Origin: Oceanotoga teriensis
GTDB taxonomy: Bacteria; Thermotogota; Thermotogae; Petrotogales; Petrotogaceae
Direction: 5' to 3'
Assembly (NCBI RefSeq): GCF_003148465.1
Contig: NZ_QGGI01000006.1
Location: 1-64,000, forward strand
DNA: 64,000 nt
The notes below the pieces were generated by a model that saw only the letters and a list, made by a program, of their open reading frames with translations, was not told the DNA's origin and did no database searches. Within the stretch, counting starts at the first letter, position 1, and every line of letters starts with the position of its first letter. A program made the translations under genes and the position numbers. Positions 51,018 to 63,090 of this stretch are shown here, in pieces.

Positions 51018-51205
51018 GTAAAATAATTGTAACGAACTCAATGTGTTTTATTTTTTTATATTAAATATCTTACCTTTCTTTTAATAGATTAAGTATAAAA
51101 AACATAAATATCTTCTTTTATAAACGAATAAATCTTAAAAGAGAAATAAAATTAACTTTAATTTAAATTAAAAGTGATAAAATATATTAAGAAAAATTAA
51201 ATAAA

Positions 51206-51288
51206 AAACAGGGGAGCTCAAATGCTGAGAGGATGTAAAAAACATCGACCCTAAAACCTGATCCAGATAATGCTGGCGTAGGAAGTTA
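51206..51288 (+). promoter_or_regulatory. TPP riboswitch (THI element) aptamer
   Basis: The conserved TPP aptamer cores are visible: CAGGGGAGCTC near 51209, ATGCTGAGAGGATG near 51222, ACCCTAAAACCTGATC near 51248, and GATAATGCTGGCGTAGGAAG near 51266-51285. The outer P1 helix is short (AAC with GTT). An intrinsic terminator follows directly, so thiamine diphosphate probably stops transcription of the transporter genes. Confidence 0.93.
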
Positions 51289-51296
51289 AAAATAAA

Positions 51297-51331
51297 ACTC
51301 TTATACCAGTCTTGGTATAAGAGTTTTTTTT
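51297..51331 (+). terminator. Riboswitch-controlled terminator
   Basis: ACTCTTATACC pairs perfectly with GGTATAAGAGT around six bases and runs into eight T residues. The thiB-like ribosome-binding site GGAGGT begins right after the T tract. I could not identify the competing antiterminator pairing. Confidence 0.88.
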
Positions 51332-54656: not shown

Positions 54657-55883
54657 TCAATACTTTATTCCATAAAAAGCCCAATGATTAACAGTATCCC
54701 CGTCTATTATAAAAGGTTCGGTATAACCTGTTTTTTTAGAATTTCCAAGATAATAAGACTCAATTTCTTTCAAATTATTAATATTAAAAGAAGCTTTAAT
54801 ATTCTCCAATAAAAATTTATCTTTGATTTTAGAGTCAAGTTTTTTTAATGTTTTTGAAGATTCTTTAAAATAAAGATAACTACCGAGCCAATAACCATTA
54901 ATTTTTAAGAAATTTTTTGTTCCTTGTATTGGAGAAATATCATTCTTTAAATTTCTACTTGAAGATCCGTAAACATCTAATATAATGTCAATAATTCCTT
55001 TTTTTATAGGAATTTTAGAAAATTTTGAAGAAACAAAAATTATGTTACCTGTTTTTCCCATAGACTCCATATAGTTTTTAGATGATTTAATTACTTCATA
55101 TTTATCATCACATGCGATATAAAATGAAGATTCAGGAATATTACCTATTATTTTTTTTAAAAAAAATCCAGAACCAGTCCCTAATTCAAGAATAAATTTA
55201 TTAGATAGATCAAATTTATTAAATCTCTTATATATCCAATCCATACCTTTATATACAAGATTAACGAAAGATTGATTAGATTTTTTAACATAATTTTCTC
55301 CAGGTTTTTCAACTTCTTCTATTTCAGGTTTATTATAATCGGCAGAATCAGTTATAATAATACCATTATCAATATTAGCTTTATATCCACATTTGCAAGA
55401 AATCTCTCCCTTAAAAACTTGATTGTCTTCTATAGAACCTTTAGATAAATTAAGCTTTGAATCACATTCAGGGCAATATAAAAAGTTTATAAAAAAAAGA
55501 GGTACACCAATTTTAGTATAATTATCATTAAAATTTTTTCTTATAGAAATTATTTTTTCGTTAATATCTTTTATAGCTTTAGTAATAAGGTCTTTTTCGT
55601 TCAAAAGTTCATGTTTCTTATTATCAAAAAAACTAACATAATAATCCAATCCATCTTGATTTGTAAGATTAGTAAACCTTTTAATAGAAAAAATTTTTTG
55701 AATTTGAGAAACTGTAAAACGCATAGACTTAAGTTCTAAAATTTCTTCAAGATCTTTTTCGCATCTATCATCAAAAGTATATTGATTATGAATTTTCTCA
55801 GGCGTCAATAAACCTATTTCTATATAGTACCGAACTGTATCTATAGTTAAATCAAATTGTTTTGCAAATTTACCTATTTTCAA
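54657..55883 (-). CDS. MerR-type regulator fused to a zinc-ribbon and SAM methyltransferase domain
   Basis: The first 75 or so residues are a MerR helix-turn-helix (KIGKFAKQFDLTIDTVRYYI, then LLTPEKIHNQYTFDDR) and a helical linker follows. Next is a cysteine ribbon (CPEC...CKCG, near residues 148-180), then a class I methyltransferase with ILELGTGSGFFLKKI near residue 236. The 408-residue protein may thus sense through or couple DNA binding to methyl transfer. The open frame begins at TTG 55910, but GGGGGG lies before TTG 55883, the preferred start. Substrate and target genes are unknown. Confidence 0.75.
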   Translation of the reverse strand: MKIGKFAKQFDLTIDTVRYYIEIGLLTPEKIHNQYTFDDRCEKDLEEILELKSMRFTVSQIQKIFSIKRFTNLTNQDGLDYYVSFFDNKKHELLNEKDLITKAIKDINEKIISIRKNFNDNYTKIGVPLFFINFLYCPECDSKLNLSKGSIEDNQVFKGEISCKCGYKANIDNGIIITDSADYNKPEIEEVEKPGENYVKKSNQSFVNLVYKGMDWIYKRFNKFDLSNKFILELGTGSGFFLKKIIGNIPESSFYIACDDKYEVIKSSKNYMESMGKTGNIIFVSSKFSKIPIKKGIIDIILDVYGSSSRNLKNDISPIQGTKNFLKINGYWLGSYLYFKESSKTLKKLDSKIKDKFLLENIKASFNINNLKEIESYYLGNSKKTGYTEPFIIDGDTVNHWAFYGIKY

Positions 55884-55896
55884 TGAAAATCCCCCC

Positions 55897-55910
55897 TTGA
55901 AACCTTTCAA
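55897..55910. repeat. Inverted repeat, possible operator of the divergent pair
   Basis: TTGAAA-CC-TTTCAA is a perfect 6-bp inverted repeat. It covers the predicted transcription start of the MerR fusion gene (-) and the -35 box of the esterase promoter (+), a good place for autoregulation. Confidence 0.5.
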
Positions 55911-58771: not shown

Positions 58772-58872
58772 AAATAATCCGTTTATTTTATGTTAACTTT
58801 AGATTGATGTAAATGAAATTAATATACTGTATATTTAATTATGTAAATAAAAAAATAAAAGGAGGTAGTGCG

Positions 58873-59001
58873 ATGATAAGATTATTGAAATTAAGATATT
58901 ATATTTTAGCATTTGCGGGAATAGTGTCCCAATTTATTGCTAATTTGCTCAATCCTCAAAAATCATGGGATAGCTCTGCCTCGAAGGTTTTAATTTTTTA
59001 A
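58873..59001 (+). CDS. Small membrane-type peptide, possible signal or leader peptide
   Basis: A 42-residue peptide: basic MIRLLKLRYY, hydrophobic ILAFAGIVSQFIANLL and a polar tail NPQKSWDSSASKVLIF. A perfect GGAGGTAGTG ribosome-binding site lies just upstream, so ATG 58873 is preferred to the in-frame ATG 58813. The family is not recognised. The charge pattern places the N-terminus in the cytoplasm with the tail exported or cleaved off. Two near-tandem terminators follow, then the micro-ORF and exporter genes. Confidence 0.65.
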   Translation: MIRLLKLRYYILAFAGIVSQFIANLLNPQKSWDSSASKVLIF

Positions 59002-59010
59002 ACTAATATC

Positions 59011-59046
59011 AAAGGCCGTGACTATCCATAGTCACGGCCTTTTTTT
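59011..59046 (+). terminator. Intrinsic terminator 1 after the small peptide gene
   Basis: AAGGCCGTGACTA pairs with TAGTCACGGCCTT and seven T residues follow. Its GTGAC/GTCAC core is shared with terminator 2. Confidence 0.9.
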
Positions 59047-59050
59047 GTAT

Positions 59051-59083
59051 AAAAACCGTGACGAAATGGTCACGGTTTTTTTT
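59051..59083 (+). terminator. Intrinsic terminator 2 after the small peptide gene
   Basis: AAAAACCGTGAC pairs with GTCACGGTTTTT around GAAATG, with eight T residues. Its 5' arm (59056-59062) can also pair with the 3' arm of terminator 1 (59031-59037), an alternative structure that would break both terminators. Confidence 0.85.
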
Positions 59084-59111
59084 ATTAAAAATAATTAAGG
59101 GGATGATACAA

Positions 59112-59138
59112 ATGACGAAAAAAGTGATTAAAAATTAA
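59112..59138 (+). CDS. Possible 8-codon micro-ORF
   Basis: The frame MTKKVIKN is preceded by GGGG nine bases upstream, within AAGGGGATGATACAA. Length alone gives no support; it is listed because a ribosome-binding site is present and similar peptides follow. Confidence 0.25.
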   Translation: MTKKVIKN

Positions 59139-59238
59139 TTAATTAGTTTTTAAAAAAATAAAGTTATATAAAAAATATTTTTTTTGAAATAATTATTGAT
59201 TAAATTTAATTAAATTAAAGTTAACGGGAGGAAAAGAT

Positions 59239-59340
59239 ATGAAAAGATTAAAATATTTAAATAAAGAACAAAAAAACGAATTAATAGATAAAATGAATCA
59301 ATATAAAAACATAGTATATGAAATTACACGAAAAATTTGA
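59239..59340 (+). CDS. Micro-protein A, lysine-rich 33 residues
   Basis: It starts at ATG after CGGGAGGAAAAGAT, a strong ribosome-binding site. The product is highly charged and helical in pattern (KYLNKEQKNELIDKM), with no cysteine and no signal peptide. It looks related to micro-proteins B and C. It is first of four genes leading to the exporter pair; the start of B lies ten bases on. The function is not known. Confidence 0.6.
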   Translation: MKRLKYLNKEQKNELIDKMNQYKNIVYEITRKI

Positions 59341-59349
59341 GGTGAAAAT

Positions 59350-59448
59350 ATGAATAAATACTTAGAAAAAATATTGAATAAAAAACAAAAAAAAGAAATA
59401 GAAAACATATATAAATACATTCATTATGATAATATAAGAAAATTCTAA
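59350..59448 (+). CDS. Micro-protein B, lysine-rich 32 residues
   Basis: The ribosome-binding site is GGTGAAAATATG, identical in form to those of larger genes in this window. The product includes KILNKKQKKEIENIY, aligning with the KYLNKEQKNELIDKM block of A, so the two probably arose by duplication. No cysteine or signal is seen. The function is unknown. Confidence 0.6.
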   Translation: MNKYLEKILNKKQKKEIENIYKYIHYDNIRKF

Positions 59449-59460
59449 GGAGATAGAGAT

Positions 59461-59571
59461 ATGAAAAAATTAAAATATATAGAAATAAAAAAAGATATAA
59501 AAAAAACTGAAATAAATATATTTCAAATACTAAAATATGAAGAAATAAAAGTTCAAAAAAAGGTGGCTTAA
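59461..59571 (+). CDS. Micro-protein C, lysine-rich 36 residues
   Basis: It begins after GGAGATAGAGAT and ends five bases before the exporter start. The product opens MKKLKYIEIKKDIKK, like the MKRLKY start of A, and is basic and helical. Its last codons contain the exporter's ribosome-binding site AGGTGG, so the two genes are tightly linked. The function is unknown. Confidence 0.55.
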   Translation: MKKLKYIEIKKDIKKTEINIFQILKYEEIKVQKKVA

Positions 59572-59575
59572 TAAA

Positions 59576-61306
59576 ATGTTTAAAATATTAAAATATTTAA
59601 AAAAATATAAATTATTTACGTTTATATCCATATTAGCAATGTTAGGGTTTACGGGATTAGATCTCTTAAACCCTTATATAACAAAAACTCTTGTAGATAA
59701 AGTATTTGTTGAACAACAATATGATATATTTTTAAAATTAATATTAATACTTATTGGAATAATGATATTAAAATCAATTTTTGCATATACGAGAGAATTT
59801 TTATTTGATTATATAGGAACTAAAGTTATGGGAGATATAAAAAAAGATTTATTTTCGGAAATGCAAAAATATGATTTTTCATTTTTTGATAATAAAAATA
59901 CTGGAGAATTAATGTCAAGAATAGGAGAAGATGCAGAAAATATATGGAATGCTTTAGGATTTGGAATAGGATTTTTAAGTGAAGCAATAATTACATTTAT
60001 ATCAGCAACAACTATATTATTTTATTTAAATTATAAATTAGCTATATTAAGTGTAATTACAATGCCAATAATATTTTATTTAGCTTTAAAAATGGAAAAT
60101 AAAATATCAAAATCCTATGATGAAATATCAGATCAAGCAGCAAAAATAAATACAACAGCACAAGAAAATATTTCAGGAGTAAGACTTGTAAAGGCTTATG
60201 CGAATGAAAAAAAAGAAGTATTAAAATTTTTAAATCTTAATAAACAAAATTATGATTTAAATATGAAAAAAACAAGAATATTTGGAAAATACTATCCAGC
60301 AATAGAATTAGTTGGAAATATGACTATGATAATTGTGATGATTTTTGGTGGAATGCTTACAATTAAAGAAGAAATAACTATAGGTACACTCTTAGCTTTT
60401 ACAGAATATATATGGCTTTTAATATGGCCTATGAGAACTGTAGGAATGTTTATGAATGTTATTTCACAAGCTAATTCATCAGCAAGAAAAATCCAAAAGA
60501 TAAAAGATTATGAACCTAAAATAGTAGATAATAAAAAAGATTTAGAAATAAAAGATTCAAAAATAGTATTTAACAATGTATGGTTTAAATATAATGATAA
60601 ATATATATTAAAAAATATAAATTTGAAAATACAAAAAGGACAAACATTAGCTATAATAGGACCTACTGGATCTGGAAAAACTTCTTTAGTAAACTTAATT
60701 GCAAGATTCTACGAAATAGATAAAGGAAATATATATATAGACAATGAAGATATAAGAAATTACTCATTAAAAAAATTAAGAGAAAATATAAGTTATGTAT
60801 TTCAAGAAAATTTTCTTTTTTCAGAATCAGTAGAAGAGAATATAAAACTTGCAGGAAATGAAAATGATATAAAATTAAACGAAATATTAGAAAATTCTGG
60901 TTCAAAAGAATTTGTAGAAAAATTAAAATATCAAGAAAAAACAATAATAGGTGAAAGAGGGCAGGGATTATCAGGTGGTCAAAAACAAAGGCTTACAATA
61001 GCAAGAGCTTTAAATAAGAATTCAAAAATTATAGTGCTTGATGATGCAACATCTGCATTAGATATGGAAACTGAATATGAAGTATTAAAAAATATAAATA
61101 AATTAAATAAAGAGCAAATAAAAATAATAATAGCACATAGAATATCAGCTGTAAAAAATGCAGATCAAATAGTATATCTTGAAGATGGTGAAATAAAAGA
61201 AATTGGAACACATATGCAATTGATAAACAAAAAAGGAAAATATTATAATATATATTTACAACAATTTAAAGACTTTATAGAAGAAGAAATTGATGAGGTG
61301 ATATAA
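59576..61306 (+). CDS. Heterodimeric ABC exporter subunit with degenerate Walker B
   Basis: This is a 576-residue half-transporter: six transmembrane helices in the first 300 or so residues, then an ATPase domain with Walker A GPTGSGKTS near 362, Q-loop VFQENFLF, signature LSGGQ at 465-469, and Walker B IVLDDATSALD, where Asp490 replaces the catalytic glutamate. This Asp is typical of the degenerate site of Thermotoga TM287/TM288-type heterodimers. It has no peptidase domain at its N-terminus. The ribosome-binding site is AGGTGG inside micro-protein C. It shares its last base with the next gene. Confidence 0.92.
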   Translation: MFKILKYLKKYKLFTFISILAMLGFTGLDLLNPYITKTLVDKVFVEQQYDIFLKLILILIGIMILKSIFAYTREFLFDYIGTKVMGDIKKDLFSEMQKYDFSFFDNKNTGELMSRIGEDAENIWNALGFGIGFLSEAIITFISATTILFYLNYKLAILSVITMPIIFYLALKMENKISKSYDEISDQAAKINTTAQENISGVRLVKAYANEKKEVLKFLNLNKQNYDLNMKKTRIFGKYYPAIELVGNMTMIIVMIFGGMLTIKEEITIGTLLAFTEYIWLLIWPMRTVGMFMNVISQANSSARKIQKIKDYEPKIVDNKKDLEIKDSKIVFNNVWFKYNDKYILKNINLKIQKGQTLAIIGPTGSGKTSLVNLIARFYEIDKGNIYIDNEDIRNYSLKKLRENISYVFQENFLFSESVEENIKLAGNENDIKLNEILENSGSKEFVEKLKYQEKTIIGERGQGLSGGQKQRLTIARALNKNSKIIVLDDATSALDMETEYEVLKNINKLNKEQIKIIIAHRISAVKNADQIVYLEDGEIKEIGTHMQLINKKGKYYNIYLQQFKDFIEEEIDEVI

Positions 61307-63090
61307 TGGCCTATAATGCAAGTAAATTAGATGAAAAAACGATAAGAATGTCTCGAAAAGAATTATTTAAGAGATTATTTTCATATTTAAAACCATTTAA
61401 AAAAACAATTATATTGATAACATTTGTTATGATAATAATAATGTTTGTAAATCTATTAAATCCATACATATTAAAGATATCTATAGATAATTACATAAAA
61501 AATTCTGATGTAAAAGGTCTTTTAATAATTGGGATAATTGGTATAATATTGAATATAATATCTTCAATATTATCTAGATATAGAATAGTAACAATGGGAG
61601 ATATAACAAATAAGATAGTAGTGAATATAAGACATGATTTATATAAACACATACAAAAATTATCTTTTGATTTTTTTGATGAAAGACCTGTTGGAAAAAT
61701 ATTAGCGAGAGTAATAGGCGATATAAATTCATTACAAAATTTTTTTCATTCAATAATAGTTAATTTTTTTCCAGAAATATTGACCATAATAACAGTGACT
61801 ATAATAATGTTAATAATGAATTATAAATTAGCAATAGTAACTTTATTAGTAATTCCATTGCTAATAATGACTTTGGCAGTAATTCAAATACTTGTTAGAA
61901 AAAGATGGGAGAACTTCAGAAAAAAAAGGTCTAATTTAAATTCATACACACATGAAGAATTTTCGGGAATAAAGGTGATACAGGCTTTTAATGCAGAGAA
62001 AAAAGCAGAAAATACATTTTTTAATTATGTGGATGAAATGGTAAATTCATTTATAAATGCAGTAAGATTACAAGATTTTTTAGATCCTGCAATCTTTATT
62101 TCTCAAGGAGTTGGATTGGTGATAATATATACATATAGTTTTAATCTAATAAAAAATAATCAATTAACAATAGGAGAATTATTTGCATTTACATGGTATA
62201 TGTCGATATTTTGGAGACCTATATTCAATATAGCTAATTTTTACAATAATTTAATAACAAGTTTTTCAGCAGCTGATAGAGTTTTTGAAATATTTAATAT
62301 AAAACCATCAGTTAAAGATACAAAAGAAAATAAAATGCCTGAAATAAAAGGAGAAATTGAATTTAAAGACGTGAATTTTTCCTATGATAGAGAAAAAAAG
62401 GTTTTAAAATCTATAAATTTTAAAGTAAAAGAAGGAGAATCAATAGCACTCGTAGGTCCAACTGGAGCTGGAAAAACTACTATAATAAATTTGCTGAGTA
62501 GATTTTATGATCCAAGTGAAGGTCAAATACTTGTAGATGGTAAAGATATAAAAGATTATTCAATAGAAAGTTATAGAGAACAAATGGGAATAATGTTACA
62601 AGATACATTTTTATTTTCAACTACAATAAAAGAAAATATAATTTATTCAAACCCAAATATAAATGAAAAAGAAATAGTAAAATCATCAATAGCTATTGGT
62701 TCTCATACTTTCATACAAAATTTAGAAAAAAAATATGATACAAATGTAAATGAAAGAGGAACAAGATTATCAGTAGGTCAAAGACAATTAATTTCTTTAA
62801 CAAGAGCTATGATAGCAAATCCAAAAATATTAATACTTGATGAAGCAACTTCAAACATAGATACAGAAACAGAACAAAAAGTCCAGCAAGGAATAAAAGA
62901 ACTATTAAAAAATAGAACATCTTTCATAATAGCTCATAGATTATCAACTATAAGAGATTGTGATAAAATATTTTATATAGATAATGGAGAAATAGAAGAA
63001 ATGGGAACACATATGCAATTAATGGAAAAACAAGGAAAATATTATGAATTATATATGACACAATTTAAATTTTTAAAAGAAGGAGTATAA
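61306..63090 (+). CDS. Heterodimeric ABC exporter subunit with canonical Walker B
   Basis: This 594-residue partner has six helices, then Walker A GPTGAGKTT, Q-loop IMLQDTFLF, signature LSVGQ at 488-492 (Val490 for Gly), and Walker B ILILDEATSNID with the catalytic Glu513. The altered signature and the Asp in the partner form one weak ATP site; Glu513 and the partner's LSGGQ form the active one. It exports lipids, drugs or peptides; the micro-proteins upstream suggest peptides. Confidence 0.92.
   Translation: MAYNASKLDEKTIRMSRKELFKRLFSYLKPFKKTIILITFVMIIIMFVNLLNPYILKISIDNYIKNSDVKGLLIIGIIGIILNIISSILSRYRIVTMGDITNKIVVNIRHDLYKHIQKLSFDFFDERPVGKILARVIGDINSLQNFFHSIIVNFFPEILTIITVTIIMLIMNYKLAIVTLLVIPLLIMTLAVIQILVRKRWENFRKKRSNLNSYTHEEFSGIKVIQAFNAEKKAENTFFNYVDEMVNSFINAVRLQDFLDPAIFISQGVGLVIIYTYSFNLIKNNQLTIGELFAFTWYMSIFWRPIFNIANFYNNLITSFSAADRVFEIFNIKPSVKDTKENKMPEIKGEIEFKDVNFSYDREKKVLKSINFKVKEGESIALVGPTGAGKTTIINLLSRFYDPSEGQILVDGKDIKDYSIESYREQMGIMLQDTFLFSTTIKENIIYSNPNINEKEIVKSSIAIGSHTFIQNLEKKYDTNVNERGTRLSVGQRQLISLTRAMIANPKILILDEATSNIDTETEQKVQQGIKELLKNRTSFIIAHRLSTIRDCDKIFYIDNGEIEEMGTHMQLMEKQGKYYELYMTQFKFLKEGV

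Follow-up and report, generated by a model that had tools for sequence, protein, structure and literature searches.

Micro-protein genes of a Petrotogaceae family between a putative ribosome-sensing attenuator and an ABC exporter gene pair in Oceanotoga teriensis

The window analyzed here, a stretch of 64,000 nucleotides from the 2.79-Mb genome of Oceanotoga teriensis (contig NZ_QGGI01000006.1), contains three tandem micro-ORFs (A, B, and C), an array that ends 4 bp 5' of a heterodimeric ABC exporter gene pair. The features of the locus are as follows.

58861..58871 (+): segment 1, the Shine-Dalgarno (SD) sequence of the leader ORF, GGAGGTAGTGC; pairs with segment 2
58873..59001 (+): leader peptide ORF of 42 amino acids, MIRLLKLRYYILAFAGIVSQFIANLLNPQKSWDSSASKVLIF; SD-led, with equally placed counterparts in the orthologous operons of six relatives
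58965..58982 (+): segment 2, ATGGGATAGCTCTGCCTC; its alternative pairing partners are segment 1 and terminator T1
59011..59042 (+): intrinsic terminator T1, with a 14-bp stem and a T tract; segment 3 forms its middle part
59051..59080 (+): intrinsic terminator T2, whose 5' arm is a possible pairing partner of the T1 3' arm
59112..59138 (+): tiny ORF of 8 amino acids, MTKKVIKN, just 3' of T2
59239..59340 (+): micro-protein A, 33 amino acids, MKRLKYLNKEQKNELIDKMNQYKNIVYEITRKI, SD GGGAGG; family member
59350..59448 (+): micro-protein B, 32 amino acids, MNKYLEKILNKKQKKEIENIYKYIHYDNIRKF, SD GAGGTG; probable family member, related to A
59461..59571 (+): micro-protein C, 36 amino acids, MKKLKYIEIKKDIKKTEINIFQILKYEEIKVQKKVA, SD AAGGAG; family membership unsupported
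59576..61306 (+): ABC exporter half 1 (ABC1), PF00664 + PF00005, membrane domain and nucleotide-binding domain (NBD), with LDDATS in Walker B and an LSGGQ signature
61306..63090 (+): ABC exporter half 2 (ABC2), PF00664 + PF00005, with LDEATS in Walker B and an LSVGQ signature

A sequence-only reading of this stretch had described three tandem micro-ORFs with separate ribosome-binding sites and without cysteine or signal sequences; all three were present, each led by an SD, and their translations contained neither cysteine nor a signal sequence. Elsewhere in the window, a TPP riboswitch (RF00059, Rfam) was found at 51200-51301; the binding-protein and permease genes that follow it look like those of a thiamine-type ABC importer. 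The reverse strand encodes at 54657-55910 a methyltransferase domain fused to a MerR-type DNA-binding domain.

The leader region consists of 57% A, a composition from which the lysine richness of the predicted peptides follows, and A, B, and C have no orthologue in a second species. Both points would suit chance ORFs of an extremely A-rich leader, a reading that we regard as very improbable for two reasons. Among 5000 dinucleotide-preserving shuffles of 59084-59575, one SD-led ORF of 25-60 amino acids arose in 24 and two arose in none. Moreover, A and B are placed among true family members, with 930 background ORFs from the same genomes scoring below them (see below). The whole plus strand of the window holds six SD-led ORFs of this size, four of which fall inside one 700-bp stretch that includes A, B, and C.

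Composition-keeping shuffles revealed a significant similarity between A and B (p = 0.0025; overall about 0.001-0.003), while the values for A-C (p = 0.18) and B-C (p = 0.02) were insecure and weak, respectively; with softer gap costs, both of the latter gave p of about 0.03-0.05. The earlier description of the three proteins as related therefore stands for A and B and is doubtful where C is concerned, and the MK(R/K)LKY start that had been put forward as common to A and C is literally present but not significant.

The micro-ORF in the same slot of the G015 operon matched a set of small ORFs and was the seed of a wider family, for which profiles were built from these small ORFs, with A, B, and C left out. 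The members have 28-41 amino acids and consist of a basic N-terminal tail and one helix with a C-terminal E-x-x-R, the frequent motif being S-Y-Y-x-x-[FY]-[DN] ... [ED]-x-x-R near the C-terminus. Helix prediction, which the sequence-only reading had proposed as a check, returned one long helix when family members were modeled with AlphaFold2, and for A a single long helix with a mean pLDDT of 86.

Profile matches were obtained in all 21 Petrotogaceae genomes, in 20 of them at E <= 2e-9; the sole match in G011 (E = 0.025) is the micro-ORF preceding that genome's own copy of the ABC pair. Among the remaining 82 genomes of the phylum, the profile search returned no convincing family member. The only size-plausible small-ORF match beyond Petrotogaceae (G055:C41) lies opposite a gene and was rejected. 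No meaningful match to the family was found in Pfam, NCBIfam, PADLOC, or PHROGs, the PDB profile search gave only noise, a tblastn search of plasmids with one family member gave no match, and A scored below the cut-off against the GA-module and DmpI models. A likeness by eye to Sda histidine-kinase inhibitors (ESYFKA..IENEIKRR) was also discarded; PF08970 matched no micro-ORF and the hhalign probability was 0.9%. As far as searched (21 + 82 genomes of the phylum), the family appears to be previously unnamed and undescribed, and specific to Petrotogaceae.

Profile searches of the window's own genome revealed two paralogous genes each on contigs C7 and C18 and one on C32, and tandem sets of two or three family genes occur in this genome as well as in G004, G005, G007, and G010. 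At L085 (G007:C169), the two detected micro-genes are separated by a third ORF of similar kind, MKKMIKNSCDYYFSKMERLTEQVFQEYRRTVRIG, between 2475 and 2592, suggesting another tandem triplet.

The plain profile of the family detected neither A (p = 0.11) nor B (p = 0.6). In a C-anchored comparison with 12 family members, A and B reached mean scores of 28.1 and 23.6, which only two of 932 like-sized background ORFs of the same genomes exceeded, both being true members that had been omitted from the reference set; the corresponding shuffle p-values of 0.0003 for A and 0.002 for B are somewhat optimistic, since the anchoring was picked after the family had been seen. In the same comparison, C ranked 13 of 932, with a shuffle p of 0.34. 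The alignment showed that A and B bear the nearly invariant E and R positions, B having D for E, and both thus combine similarity beyond composition with the C-terminal E/D-x-x-R motif, a combination not found in C. Their membership is also supported by position: between T2 and the ABC gene, the operons of G010, G013, and G015 have a clear family member, and that of G011 has a weaker one. On these comparisons, the assignment of A to the family is well supported, that of B is probable, and that of C is possible.

Two computations on family members in relatives, the window's genus being represented by one genome, gave pN/pS values of 0.34 and 0.31; per site, silent changes outnumber amino-acid changes about threefold, which points to purifying selection on the family. 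Selection on these tiny ORFs, as proposed earlier, is consequently upheld through the wider family in relatives (pN/pS about 0.3) and not through A, B, and C themselves.

The exporter genes following the array encode a pair with an altered Walker-B glutamate in one half and an altered signature in the other, one of the two ATP sites being canonical and the other degenerate. Among solved structures, the best-scoring bacterial half-transporter for ABC1 was TM_0288 (E = 4e-100). Like TM287/288 of Thermotoga maritima, the pair is a heterodimeric ABC exporter in which one ATP site is degenerate, but the sequences are only distantly similar. Only four genera of Petrotogaceae yielded orthologues of ABC1 with more than 50% identity, and a GTDB contig scan with the ABC protein returned remote transporters only. 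In G020 (C11:201556-202554, locus L017), the ABC1 orthologue has three apparent in-frame stops, and the leader and terminators look intact.

The two intrinsic terminators upstream of the array are strong, and the terminator search revealed three terminator-like sites against 0.1 expected. Counterparts of the leader ORF occupy the same place in G001, G010, G013, G015, G019, and G020, and these six leaders were compared with that of the window's own genome. Segment 2 lies late in the leader region and is complementary both to the leader SD and to the 5' half or loop of T1; its equivalents in the six relatives differ in sequence and keep the pairing match. Both pairings were found in 7 of 7 readable leaders, with energies of -13 to -17 kcal/mol for segment 1 with segment 2, and of -14 to -17 kcal/mol for segment 2 with T1. 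The pairing segments are GAGGTAG.GC / GC.CTGCCTC and GGATAG / CTATCC in the window, GGTTATCACA / TGTGATAACC / GGTTATCACA in genus g6 (which we informally take to be Marinitoga), and GAGGTAAAG / CTTTACCTC and GGATAGCT / AGCTATCC in G001. The observed combined pairing score was reached by 0 of 400 dinucleotide shuffles in each of four leaders.

The arms of T1 and T2 were also complementary to each other in 7 of 7 leaders (-10 to -23 kcal/mol), and this tandem sharing of arms, at 59011-59080 and in the six relatives, might form a relay disarming both terminators. ORFs of 5-12 codons led by a strong SD were observed right after T2 in six genomes (the window, L007 at 1291-1326, L017 at 1405-1440, L008, L009, and L052), with the peptides MTKKVIKN, MILKFVRWVFN, MTFKSVRWNFN, MTFKNVGFFLNE, MNKLIRGITEN, and MVFNF; they are possibly a further translated control element.

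Two marks of bmrB-type control were found at this locus: a predicted leader ORF located 5' of an ABC multidrug exporter pair, and a terminator whose antiterminator and anti-antiterminator pairings exclude each other. Judged by these sequence features, the element preceding A, B, and C looks like a BmrB-type ribosome-sensing attenuator, the control logic of which is well supported.

The genomic context of the family was analyzed at 29 loci, comprising 17 operonic loci, 11 stand-alone loci, and one running into a contig end. Exporter genes (MFS or ABC drug-type) follow at 16 of the 17 operonic loci, and another gene follows at the remaining one; an MFS pump lies behind nine loci (eight Mef-like, with 44-99% identity among the five compared, and one distant MFS), while ABC exporter genes lie behind seven. 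Of the functions suggested in the sequence-only reading, that of exporter partners fits this context best, and that of regulators is possible. The company of exporters and the attenuator together suggest a part in drug or translation stress. At one syntenic site in genus g3, informally and presumably Petrotoga, the micro-gene lies next to the same divergent gene throughout (L087-L090), but two species have an MFS pump behind it and two others an ABC exporter, as if the pumps had been swapped.

At most of the stand-alone and MFS-linked loci, a promoter of the TTGACA-17-TATAAT type was found, matching 10-12 of 12 positions. The attenuator-type, ABC-embedded loci that were scanned (A in the window, G010, G013, and G015) had promoter scores of 8-9 of 12, no better than shuffles. 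With no evident promoter at the ABC-embedded copies, A to C are probably transcribed only by polymerases passing T1 and T2, barring another promoter type.

Leaderless multi-peptide bacteriocins of the aureocin A70 type consist of tandem small cationic leaderless peptides beside an ABC exporter. A, B, and C, which are small, cationic, helical, and in tandem next to an exporter, share this arrangement, and some stand-alone loci of the family also have tandem copies. Even so, it is most unlikely that they are antimicrobial or signaling peptides exported by the adjacent pair, and the earlier suggestion of leaderless peptides is not supported, because the family is conserved between species instead of diversifying, includes conserved stand-alone copies, and occurs beside Mef-like MFS pumps or, at many loci, without any transporter. 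In addition, the exporter is apparently under a drug-type, ribosome-sensing attenuator, the ABC proteins lack a peptidase domain, and no modifying enzyme is encoded nearby.

A further explanation is that A, B, and C act in cis only, as translated spacers or extra leader peptides whose amino-acid sequence hardly matters, by keeping the mRNA occupied by ribosomes, by shielding it from Rho or RNases, or by coupling translation into the ABC gene. The stop-to-start gaps of 4-12 nt, with SDs at or overlapping the stops, are in accordance with this, as is the variation of the slot between genera: G001 has two ORFs there (36 and 38 amino acids, not recognized as family members), and G011 has ORFs of 52, 40, and 35 amino acids. 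Since G019 and G020 lack such an ORF in the slot and G001 has different ones there, the exporter does not require the micro-proteins. We nevertheless consider an exclusive action in cis unlikely, if a good deal less so than chance ORFs or bacteriocins. Relatives of A and B are found at stand-alone loci, where they have a promoter of their own and are followed by a terminator or a convergent gene, so that the peptide there has no gene to lead; this suggests that the peptide itself is kept and not its translation in cis. The conservation of the amino-acid sequence (pN/pS about 0.3) and the C-terminal motif common to the family argue in the same direction.

We therefore lean, by a modest degree, toward trans-acting helpers: A and B, and possibly C, would be micro-protein genes of a Petrotogaceae family in a drug-inducible, attenuator-controlled exporter operon, and their products would act in trans as helical helpers. 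This best explanation takes the ORFs, the family, the pairings, the terminators, and the lack of an evident separate promoter from the sequence. Transcription would start 5' of the leader ORF. If the leader is free of ribosomes, segment 1 would pair with segment 2, T1 and T2 would form, and transcription would stop; fast translation of the leader would have the same outcome, the ribosome then lying over segment 2. Were a ribosome to stall or slow down near the start of the leader, it would cover segment 1 and leave segment 2 free to pair with the 5' half of T1, so that T1 would fail. The freed 3' arm of T1 may then sequester the 5' arm of T2, a presumed relay by which RNA polymerase would enter the three micro-protein genes and the exporter genes. 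A and B would serve exporter-based drug tolerance as short helical helpers in trans, and most likely bind a shared cytoplasmic partner. Drug sensing, the relay from T1 to T2, the action in trans, and the partner are thus the parts of the explanation that we infer.

In Bacillus subtilis, lincomycin, erythromycin, and chloramphenicol act through translation of the bmrB leader to cause read-through into bmrCD (PMC4191407), and by likeness to this system, the inducers here would be ribosome-targeting drugs. The two loci share a leader ORF, a terminator with competing antiterminator and anti-antiterminator, and a heterodimeric ABC multidrug exporter downstream (PMC4191407). They differ in that the terminator lies within bmrB, whereas here two arm-sharing terminators follow the leader ORF. 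In addition, the first pairing arm is here provided by the SD, and micro-protein genes separate the terminators from the exporter. A tiny peptide tied to drug exposure is also known from Sinorhizobium meliloti, where the leader peptide peTrpL acts in trans on a multidrug-efflux operon within an RNA-protein complex on smeR mRNA (PMC7298713); a sequence relation to the micro-proteins was neither expected nor found, and its mechanism need not apply here. The micro-proteins are most likely trans-acting helpers co-induced with the pump by translation-blocking drugs, their molecular job being conjectural.

Beyond the sequence-only reading, the analysis adds the upstream attenuator with a leader ORF of its own, as well as paralogues at other sites of the genome. 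A broader generalization, which we put forward tentatively and with less confidence than the explanation of this operon, is that helical micro-proteins of 28-41 amino acids are, throughout Petrotogaceae, trans companions of multidrug exporters, placed repeatedly ahead of unrelated MFS and ABC pumps and here set under a ribosome-sensing attenuator with an arm-sharing relay of two terminators. Proteins this small routinely escape annotation, and this family is present in 21 of 21 Petrotogaceae genomes and recognized by no Pfam, NCBIfam, PHROGs, or PADLOC model. Its recurrent placement ahead of different drug pumps provides a testable link between micro-proteins and exporter function, and the attenuator would extend bmrB-like antibiotic sensing to Thermotogota, with a simple double-terminator relay.
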